Part shown: in pieces, positions 56,012-62,609 of the stretch | Position numbering within the stretch: the first letter of the stretch is position 1 | Layout of the letters: each line of letters starts with the position of its first letter | NCBI GenBank assembly: GCA_947629545.1 | Contig: CANREE010000001.1 | Location: 1-64,000 of the forward strand | DNA from: an uncultured Lachnospiraceae bacterium | GTDB taxonomy: Bacteria > Bacillota > Clostridia > Lachnospirales > Lachnospiraceae | Length of the DNA stretch: 64,000 nucleotides | Direction of reading: 5' to 3' | Notes under the pieces: model-generated | The model's input: only the letters and a program-made list of their open reading frames with translations | The model's database searches: none | Told to the model about the DNA's origin: nothing | Program-made: the position numbers and the translations under genes

Positions 56012-56162
56012 TTGCGATATGCTTCCTGAACTAGCTTGTGTGTTTCTATCAGGTTAATCGAATTCTTTTCTGTCTATGTCGAAAGGAAGGTACCTTGCAG
56101 ATCGGTTTTGCCAGAGAGAAAAGCACGGGTTGACTTTCTGCTCTAAAAGGAGTTCTTTTTGT

Positions 56163-56192
56163 ATTGCATATATGATCGATGCTGTAGTATAA
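56163..56192 (+). promoter_or_regulatory. Putative GH5 promoter TTGCAT-N18-TATAAT
   Basis: Motif and spacing. Confidence 0.6.
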
Positions 56193-56236
56193 TGGTTACC
56201 AGTTGCAGGAAGAATTTTCGGCAGTTGGAGGCGAAC

Positions 56237-57955
56237 ATGAAAAAAAGTATCAGCGCTGCGAAAGCAGCGCTTTTGATAGGAATCATGATTCTCTTTGTGG
56301 GCGCTGTTTCTTTGAGCCGCGCGGAGATTTCCACGTACGCGGCGGGGCTGGGAACCGCTTTGGCGGGATCCGGAACCGGTCTTGCAGGTGTCGGAACCGG
56401 TCTGGCAGGCAGCGGAACCGGTCTTGCGGCGCCATCCACATCCGGCGCGCTCCACGTGGAAGGCGCGAAGCTCATGGGAAGCGACGGCCGGCCGGTGCAG
56501 CTTCGCGGCATCAGCACCCACGGCATCGCCTGGTTCCCGGATTATATCAATGAAGCCGCGTTTCGGCAGTTCCGCACCGAGTGGGGCGCCAATGTGGTCC
56601 GTCTGGCCATGTATACGGCGGAGTATGGCGGCTACTCTTCCGGCGGTGATAAGATGCAGCTTAAGAATCTGGTTCGCAGCGGCGTCCGTTATGCCACGGC
56701 TCAGGATCTGTATGTGATCATTGACTGGCACATCCTTTCCGACGGCGATCCGAATACCCATAAGGAAGACGCGAAAGCATTTTTCGCTGAGATGTCGAAG
56801 GAATTCGCGGCGAATAACAATGTGCTCTACGAGATCTGCAATGAGCCCAACGGCGGAACCATCTGGCAGCAGATCAAGTCTTACGCGAACGAGGTGATCC
56901 CGGTGATCCGCGCGAACGACAAGGATGCGGTCATCATCGTGGGAACGCCCAACTGGTCCCAGTATGTGGATCAGGCTGCGGCGGATCCGATCACCGGGTA
57001 TGACAATATCATGTATGCCCTGCATTTTTACGCGGCGACCCATAAGGACGACCTGCGGGCGAAAATGGTGAGGGCGATCCAGAAGGGACTGCCGGTATTT
57101 GTCACGGAGTACGGGATCTGCGACGCCAGCGGAAACGGCGGCATTGATGAGGCCAGCGCGAACCAGTGGATCAATACGATGAACCAGTACGGCGTCAGCT
57201 ATGTGGCATGGAACCTGTCCAATAAGGCGGAGACTTCGGCTATTATCCAGAGCGGAAGTACGAAGAAAAATGGATTTACCGACAGCGATCTGAGCGCTTC
57301 CGGAAAATGGCTCCGCGCCATGCTAATGAACGGCGCCGGTGCGGCGGGAAGTGTGAATGGGGCGGCTGACGCACTGGGTGTGGGACAGAGCAGCGGTCCG
57401 CTCACAAGCGGAGGTCAGAACGGTGTCAACGGTTCATCGGCGAATGGCGTTCAGAATGGCGTCAGAGGTCCGATTACGAACGGCAGTCAGAACGCTGCCG
57501 ATGATTCGAATGGAAGCAACAGTGGAAACACCATCAAGGATTCGTTCGCAAGCGGCGGCCAGAGCAGTACCAATGTTTCGCCTGAAAACAGCGGTCAGAA
57601 CACTGGAAGCAGTTCAGCCGGCAGCACGTCTGCGGGCGACAGCCAGGTCATTCAGAGCGGAAGCATCCGTATCACGGCCACAGTCGTGAACCGATGGACT
57701 TCCGGCGGCAAAGCGTATACGCATTATACGATGAAAATGGAGAATACGTCCGGCTCGCCGGTGAATCAGTGGACCGTCACGATCCCGTTTACGGGAAATT
57801 TCCGCCTTACGGACAGCTGGAACGGAGATTATACGGTGTCCGGGCGTGCGCTGACCGTCACATCCAAGTCATATAACGGAAAGATCCCGGCAGGCGGATC
57901 TGTGTCCGATGTGGGATTCATTGTGGCCGGAGCGGAGATTGCGGACGGCACGTGA
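56237..57955 (+). CDS. GH5 family endoglucanase-like protein with low-complexity linker and C-terminal CBM2-like domain
   Basis: Signal peptide; LRGISTHGIAWFPDYIN, catalytic EICNEPNGG and VTEYGICDASG; Gly/Ser/Asn linker; C-terminal beta domain. Confidence 0.85.
   Translation: MKKSISAAKAALLIGIMILFVGAVSLSRAEISTYAAGLGTALAGSGTGLAGVGTGLAGSGTGLAAPSTSGALHVEGAKLMGSDGRPVQLRGISTHGIAWFPDYINEAAFRQFRTEWGANVVRLAMYTAEYGGYSSGGDKMQLKNLVRSGVRYATAQDLYVIIDWHILSDGDPNTHKEDAKAFFAEMSKEFAANNNVLYEICNEPNGGTIWQQIKSYANEVIPVIRANDKDAVIIVGTPNWSQYVDQAAADPITGYDNIMYALHFYAATHKDDLRAKMVRAIQKGLPVFVTEYGICDASGNGGIDEASANQWINTMNQYGVSYVAWNLSNKAETSAIIQSGSTKKNGFTDSDLSASGKWLRAMLMNGAGAAGSVNGAADALGVGQSSGPLTSGGQNGVNGSSANGVQNGVRGPITNGSQNAADDSNGSNSGNTIKDSFASGGQSSTNVSPENSGQNTGSSSAGSTSAGDSQVIQSGSIRITATVVNRWTSGGKAYTHYTMKMENTSGSPVNQWTVTIPFTGNFRLTDSWNGDYTVSGRALTVTSKSYNGKIPAGGSVSDVGFIVAGAEIADGT
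56351..56434 (+). repeat. Four in-frame 21-bp tandem coding repeats (GTxLAxx)
   Basis: ggaaccgctttggcgggatcc and three variants encode GTALAGS-GTGLAGV-GTGLAGS-GTGLAAP. Confidence 0.85.
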
Positions 57956-61420: not shown

Positions 61421-61449
61421 TTGCATTTTTCTCCCGGATATGCTATGCT
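61421..61449 (+). promoter_or_regulatory. Putative promoter TTGCAT-N17-TATGCT
   Basis: Motif and spacing upstream of 61492. Confidence 0.55.
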
Positions 61450-61491: not shown

Positions 61492-62121
61492 ATGATCAGA
61501 TTAGAACGCACGAGCGTCATGAACCTGGAGAATGCGATGCGGGGGGCCCGCAACCCGATGAACAGCTGGGCGCGCATGGACAGCGGCTACGATGAGGAAG
61601 GCAATTTTGTCCTGGGGCCCAATGATATGGATCTGGCCTGCCGTCTGCGGCGGGCCGGCAGCGACCACCGCAAGTTTATCCGCCAGATCTTTGTGTCGGT
61701 CGATATCACCGCGCCGCTTTACTGGTGGAAGGAGTACGACACCTATAAAGTGGCGACGGTGGCCAATTCCACCAGCACCATGCATAAGATCCACAGCAAA
61801 CCGTTTTCCATCGACGATTTTTCGCATGACCATCTGACGGAGTCCGGTCTTGCCATTATGGAACGGCTGGTGGATGAGCTGGAGCAGATACGCCTTCGTT
61901 ATATGGAAGGGAAGGATAAAGCGGACTGGTATGATCTGATCCAGCTGCTTCCGTCCAGTTATAATCAGATGCGGACCTGCACGCTGAATTACGAGACATT
62001 GGTGAATATTTACTATGCAAGGCGGAACCATAAGCTGGAAGAGTGGCATACCTTCTGTGCATGGATCGAAACGCTGCCGTACGCAAAGGAACTGATCGTG
62101 GCGGAGGATGAACAGTCATGA
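61492..62121 (+). CDS. ThyX-like (Thy1 superfamily) protein with divergent signature motif
   Basis: Whole-length pattern resembles ThyX (ITAPLYWWKEYDTYKVATVANSTSTMHK at the RHR motif region; LLPSSYNQMRTCTLNYETLVNIYYARRNHKLEEWHTFCAWI at the C-terminus); overlaps DHFR. Confidence 0.6.
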   Translation: MIRLERTSVMNLENAMRGARNPMNSWARMDSGYDEEGNFVLGPNDMDLACRLRRAGSDHRKFIRQIFVSVDITAPLYWWKEYDTYKVATVANSTSTMHKIHSKPFSIDDFSHDHLTESGLAIMERLVDELEQIRLRYMEGKDKADWYDLIQLLPSSYNQMRTCTLNYETLVNIYYARRNHKLEEWHTFCAWIETLPYAKELIVAEDEQS

Positions 62122-62609
62122 ACCTGATCGCGGCGGTCGATAAGAACTGGGCCATCGGCTGCGGGGGACGGCTGCTGGTGTCGATCCCTTCCGACCGGGA
62201 AACCTTTCGGCGGGAAACCGTGGGCCGGGCGGTCATTATGGGGAGAAAGACGCTCGAAAGCCTGCCCGGCGGCCAGCCGCTTGCGAAGCGGACGAATATT
62301 GTTTTGTCGAGGGATCCGGATTTTCGGGCAAAGGGCGCCGTTGTCTGCCGAAGCGTTGAGGAGGCGCTGGCGGCGGCGGACGGATTTGCGGCGGCGGACG
62401 TCTTTGTGATCGGAGGCCGGGAGATTTACGGGGCCTTTCTGCCGTACTGCGACAGGGCGTATATTACTTATATTGATTATGCTTACCAGGCGGATACTTA
62501 TCTGTGTAATCTGGATCTGGATCCAGACTGGATGCTTGAGTCAGAATCCGACGAGCAGACATATTTCAATCTGTGCTATACGTTCCGCAGGTATGTGCGG
62601 AAAAGCTGA
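62118..62609 (+). CDS. folA: Dihydrofolate reductase
   Basis: MNLIAAVDKNWAIGCGGRLLVSIPSDRETFRRETVGRAVIMGRKTLESLPGG; VFVIGGREIYGAFLPYCDRAYITYID. Confidence 0.96.
   Translation: MNLIAAVDKNWAIGCGGRLLVSIPSDRETFRRETVGRAVIMGRKTLESLPGGQPLAKRTNIVLSRDPDFRAKGAVVCRSVEEALAAADGFAAADVFVIGGREIYGAFLPYCDRAYITYIDYAYQADTYLCNLDLDPDWMLESESDEQTYFNLCYTFRRYVRKS

Follow-up and report, generated by a model that had tools for sequence, protein, structure and literature searches.

A ThyX-fold protein family lacking the ThyX signature is a predicted thymidylate synthase of Clostridia and their phages

Which protein is encoded directly in front of the dihydrofolate reductase gene folA in a Lachnospiraceae genome (83% complete) where neither thyA nor thyX was found, and could it be the one that makes dTMP there? 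The question is raised by the window, a stretch of 64,000 nucleotides from an uncultured Lachnospiraceae bacterium (contig CANREE010000001.1). The protein is called P hereafter, and the features considered are the following.

61492 to 62121, forward strand: P, ThyX-fold protein of PHROG 6721, predicted thymidylate synthase; 209 aa, ATG start
61666 to 61668, forward strand: codon of P H59, aligned with H53 of T. maritima ThyX
61741 to 61791, forward strand: P codons 84-100 (TYKVATVANSTSTMHKI), the segment that MAFFT, run without constraints, places against the signature RHRxxSxNExSxR of T. maritima ThyX
62020 to 62022, forward strand: codon of P R177, aligned with R174 of T. maritima ThyX
62118 to 62609, forward strand: folA, dihydrofolate reductase; 163 aa, matched by DHFR profiles

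The ORF check showed that the stop codon of the 209-aa ORF overlaps the folA start through ATGA, as stated in the original prediction, and an SD-like GGAGG lies about 10 nt 5' of the folA start. The downstream gene encodes an ordinary DHFR (E 4e-26 with the NCBIfam DHFR models and 1.3e-41 with PF00186). The putative promoter proposed at 61421-61449 of the forward strand was not found by the consensus scan, and the element found there by eye, TTGCAT-17-TATGCT with 8 of 12 consensus matches, is weak. P is far from a chance ORF, because 22 of the 26 genomes in the genus have kept it, among them every one of the 11 of high quality. Elsewhere in the window (genome G000), at 56159-57955, we observed the gene of a GH5 cellulase that carries a CBM2 domain and a repetitive linker of Ser, Gly and Asn; two genes further downstream come an ABC transporter and a GH88 gene.

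The only curated family that covers P is PHROG 6721, listed as "unknown function" (E 4.7e-73, residues 1-203 on profile positions 7-216 of 218). All relatives from this family in named phages (of Enterocloster, Fusobacterium, Clostridioides and Desulfovibrio) are labelled as hypothetical proteins. PHROG 6721 also finds matches in Methanosarcina acetivorans, a control genome that holds ThyA. No earlier description of the protein, or of a third thymidylate synthase family, was found in the open-licence literature, and reviews recognise only two such families, ThyA and ThyX (PMC5954106, PMC9931769). Searched as a single sequence, P matched nothing in NCBIfam or the PDB and nothing meaningful in Pfam, and PF00303 (ThyA) matched neither P nor the host genome.

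Profile searches pointed faintly towards ThyX. The Thy1 model (PF02511) reached at best an E value of 4e-4 on members of the P family (alignment A1), and its blind genome search matched five P loci (E 6e-5 to 8e-4, 19.5-23.2 bits); P did not attain its gathering score of 24.8 bits, the window protein giving no match. When the P-family profile was compared with the PDB, only two entries stood above noise, both of them H. pylori ThyX (E 0.03-0.04). Since HHalign comparisons of P-family profiles with clostridial ThyX, alone or together with T. maritima ThyX, were not significant, and a combined P+Q profile barely separated real ThyX from shuffled sequences, homology based on sequence only was set aside. 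The claim that P and ThyX are homologous therefore rests on the fold, with which the sequence evidence agrees but weakly. Judged by its sequence, P is not filed as ThyX because it lacks the signature motif and lies below the Pfam cut-off.

An AlphaFold2 model was built from alignment A4, which contains 107 sequences (that of the window and fetched relatives), and gave a pLDDT of 93 and a pTM of 0.87. All of the 50 best PDB matches listed by Foldseek were ThyX, with TM values of about 0.6-0.69; the first was 3ah5 (E 5.9e-8, probability 1.00, TM 0.66). Compared with viral models, P retrieved three uncharacterised relatives first and then proteins named ThyX. The predicted structure thus assigns P to the ThyX fold beyond reasonable doubt. 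The resemblance to ThyX that the original prediction had drawn from comparison with a Thermotoga ThyX is in this way recovered independently of that comparison, AlphaFold2 and Foldseek having found the ThyX fold instead of its absence.

The T. maritima ThyX sequence was verified against PDB 1kq4, and its alignment with P was reproduced by unconstrained MAFFT; all residue correspondences given here come from this alignment. Five T. maritima ThyX residues appear to be kept in P: H53 (H59 in P), P151 (P154), N163 (N166), N169 (N172) and R174 (R177). R177 is invariant in the 107 sequences of A4 and H59 nearly so. In T. maritima ThyX, R174 activates dUMP (PMC8316439) and H53 stacks on flavin or folate (PMC11940539). 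The peptide blocks quoted earlier for P are all present, and the three ThyX-like ones are among the best-conserved parts of the family. As reported, the arginines and the histidine of the signature are gone, and this holds family-wide, with TYKxATxANxTxT in place of RHRxxSxNExSxR (R78 to T84, H79 to Y85, R80 to K86, E86 to N92, S88 to T94, R90 to T96 and Y91 to M97, from ThyX to P), and further swaps are R147 to I150, R165 to E168 and H178 to K181. Flavin binding in the manner of ThyX is doubtful for P, as judged from the alignment, because nine ThyX residues (R78, H79, R80, E86, R90, Y91, R147, R165 and H178) are not kept.

P has a conserved set of its own. More than 30 columns are invariant over the 107 diverse P sequences, many of them polar, ring or basic, and the invariant or nearly invariant residues of A4 include R20, N21, S25, W26, D30, K61, R64, D71, Y77 and Y85, as well as S93, S95, T96, M97, H98, Q159, R161, T162, Y167, H180 and W185. 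There is no invariant cysteine in the family, which speaks against a ThyA-like nucleophilic catalysis. A distant subfamily with the motif RYHxxDxxSSQSxMHR (L031, L038, L003, L005), found in Fusobacterium and Clostridioides phages, still has the arginine with which the ThyX signature begins.

The distribution of P was determined in a class sample of 216 genomes, in each of which P, ThyX, ThyA, DHFR and thymidine kinase were looked for. Eighteen of the 20 clear P carriers had neither ThyA nor ThyX, ThyA being present in none and ThyX in two (G054 and G228). ThyA or ThyX was found in 190 of the 196 genomes without clear P, and neither in six (Fisher 3e-19, uncorrected for relatedness). A family sample of 150 genomes, covering 149 genera of the family to which the host belongs, gave the same picture: both enzymes were missing from 24 of the 28 clear carriers as compared to 2 of the 122 others (p 1.6e-21), and two of the 28 carriers held ThyA. 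Selected related loci were traced to 20 genomes, most of them of named cultured strains, and 19 of these lacked ThyA. Broken remnants of P were observed in two ThyX genomes, as a piece of 98 aa in G120 and one of 39 aa in G222. This phyletic pattern is the decisive evidence for reading P as a replacement of ThyA and ThyX. The suggestion that P may be a paralogue or regulator is accordingly not the best view, since its carriers usually lack both enzymes.

Some small-genome bacteria without either synthase live by salvage (PMC1971073), and P carriers might likewise be thymidine auxotrophs that import thymidine while P does something else. This is extremely improbable: the carriers include genomes of 2-7 Mb, and thymidine kinase PF00265 (the one kinase family searched) was absent from 17 of the 18 class genomes whose only candidate is P, which makes thymidine salvage unlikely in them. 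The reading that we prefer is that P is a third thymidylate synthase, of ThyX fold and forming a clade of its own, in which the signature has been lost; its activity is a prediction, and we consider it very probable. In many gut bacteria with neither known synthase, no other candidate for making thymine for DNA is in sight.

None of ThyA, ThyX and P was clear in seven genomes (G029, G036, G063, G112, G114 and G174 of the class sample, and G382 of the family sample), three of which measure 0.8-0.9 Mb and belong to one genus. ThyA and P were seen together at L117 (Hungatella effluvii), about 4 kb apart, and at G268:C1:2001254-2003390, about 1 kb apart; genomes where the two are adjacent are possibly caught between two enzymes. 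One genome (G041, family f19) contained only a distant P member, with the motif RYHFADIVSSQSKMHR, and no ThyA, ThyX or thymidine kinase, so that the RYHxxDxxSSQSxMHR subfamily is its only candidate.

ThyA makes dihydrofolate, while ThyX leaves tetrahydrofolate. In the class sample, PF00186 DHFR was found in 88 of the 89 ThyA-only genomes, in 17 of the 93 ThyX-only genomes and in 6 of the 18 P-only genomes. PF00186 DHFR is thus mostly absent from P-only genomes, in which respect P behaves like ThyX and not like ThyA, and the chemistry of P probably leaves tetrahydrofolate. We infer that the hydride comes from a source other than folate, a flavin being the default guess. The original prediction had put weight on the DHFR pairing, with changed folate or flavin chemistry as one possibility; the pairing does not hold the key to the chemistry of P, because the 12 P-only genomes without PF00186 DHFR show that the pairing is not obligatory. 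A dihydrofolate-producing, ThyA-like reaction was likewise rejected as the default on the basis of DHFR co-occurrence.

P could instead regulate or assist DHFR, with dTMP made by an unrecognised enzyme elsewhere; this would fit its translational overlap with folA, which several relatives share, and the missing ThyX signature. Such a role is hard to reconcile with the same 12 of 18 genomes and with more than 30 invariant columns, as expected of an active site; moreover, the second enzyme would need P's own distribution. We regard this explanation as very improbable.

For the pairing with folA, the genomic context offers another origin. In relatives from the host family, thyA lies directly before folA (G048, G101, G182, G200, G217), and P lies directly before folA in G000 and G234 and in the f11 genomes G066 and G091. 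P therefore occupies the usual place of thyA before folA in two bacterial families, and the pairing looks like the inherited place of thyA in a thyA-folA operon. A DHFR gene is present in 48 of 80 related bacterial P loci, usually directly downstream, and in an f16 genome (G160) P is found directly behind recF-gyrB.

In a tree of 65 P sequences, which contains some long branches and serves as a guide only, the copies on chromosomes of f1, f16, f31 and f37 grouped into one supported clade (98/97), while those of f11 (100/99) and the one of f7 stood apart, which suggests independent replacements. The P copy of the ThyX genome G228 branched among phages, which explains why this genome is an exception holding both P and ThyX.

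The family is abundant in phages, with 587 confirmed viral stretches. Neighbours of phage P include NrdD (13 loci), NrdG (7), dUTPase (7) and MazG (15), which is a deoxynucleotide-supply setting, and in the Enterocloster phage PMBT24 P lies near a deoxynucleoside monophosphate kinase. ThyA-fold enzymes have nucleotide-modifying relatives in phages. By this parallel, and given the abundance in phages and the kinase neighbour in PMBT24, P might be a ThyX-fold modifier of pyrimidine nucleotides, for example a dUMP or dCMP hydroxymethylase, serving modified phage DNA, with the bacterial copies domesticated. The dUMP/dCMP-modifying role raised earlier is indeed possible for phage copies, but it does not explain the bacterial distribution: it gives no account of chromosomal carriers without ThyA and ThyX and mostly without thymidine kinase, of P in the place of thyA before folA or of the broken remnants in ThyX genomes, and the principal chromosomal copies, which sit in housekeeping contexts, group together in one supported clade. 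As an explanation of the family it is very improbable.

If P is a thymidylate synthase, it would convert dUMP to dTMP with methylenetetrahydrofolate as the carbon donor, and would take the place of ThyA and ThyX in numerous Clostridia and their phages; the bacteria include Lachnospiraceae (among them Lacrimispora, Oribacterium and Lachnoanaerobaculum) as well as members of several other families. The invariant R177 (R174 in T. maritima ThyX) may polarise the uracil, so that C5 would attack the one-carbon unit without a cysteine nucleophile. The hydride would then be delivered by a non-folate reductant, probably reduced flavin, and tetrahydrofolate released. Phosphate and cofactor binding, the task of RHR, R90, R147, R165 and H178 in the replaced ThyX set, may have been taken over by the conserved R20, K61, R64, K86, R161, H180 and K181.

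With ThyX (PF02511 Thy1; T. maritima TM0449 and H. pylori ThyX), P shares the fold (Foldseek E 6e-8), apparent counterparts of the five aligned residues, exclusivity with ThyA and frequent occurrence in genomes without DHFR. It differs in lacking RHRxxSxNExSxR, R147, R165 and H178, in its low identity (16-18%), in lying mostly under the Pfam cut-off and in the extra conserved motifs RNPxNSW, SxSTMHK and RRNHKLxEW. With ThyA (PF00303) it has in common the place before folA and the presumed product, but it has no PF00303 match, another fold and no invariant cysteine, and most P-only genomes do without DHFR. P is a member of PHROG 6721, which itself has no assigned function; what differs here is that a function is proposed and chromosomal members are shown.

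A stronger version can be put forward only tentatively, and we lean against it: P may represent a third class, with a chemistry unlike that of ThyX and a cofactor site that is rebuilt or different and may not bind FAD, a class that evolved in phages and became the sole dTMP source in several families of gut Clostridia. If a third thymidylate synthase exists, it would explain DNA synthesis in bacteria without ThyA and ThyX and close a gap in the metabolic reconstructions of common gut anaerobes, where it is the only candidate. A frequent phage protein family, PHROG 6721, would gain a function. P would also be a narrow target for antibacterials, and it would provide a natural experiment on which ThyX residues catalysis truly requires.

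In 38-39 of the 80 bacterial loci (L071-L150), an NfnAB/SudAB-like pair for electron transfer was observed near P, consisting of a protein with Fer4_20 and Pyr_redox_2 and a DHODB_Fe-S protein. The gene order is P-folA-nfnA-nfnB in L235, and in L234 an nfn-like large-subunit gene is also found near thyA-folA.
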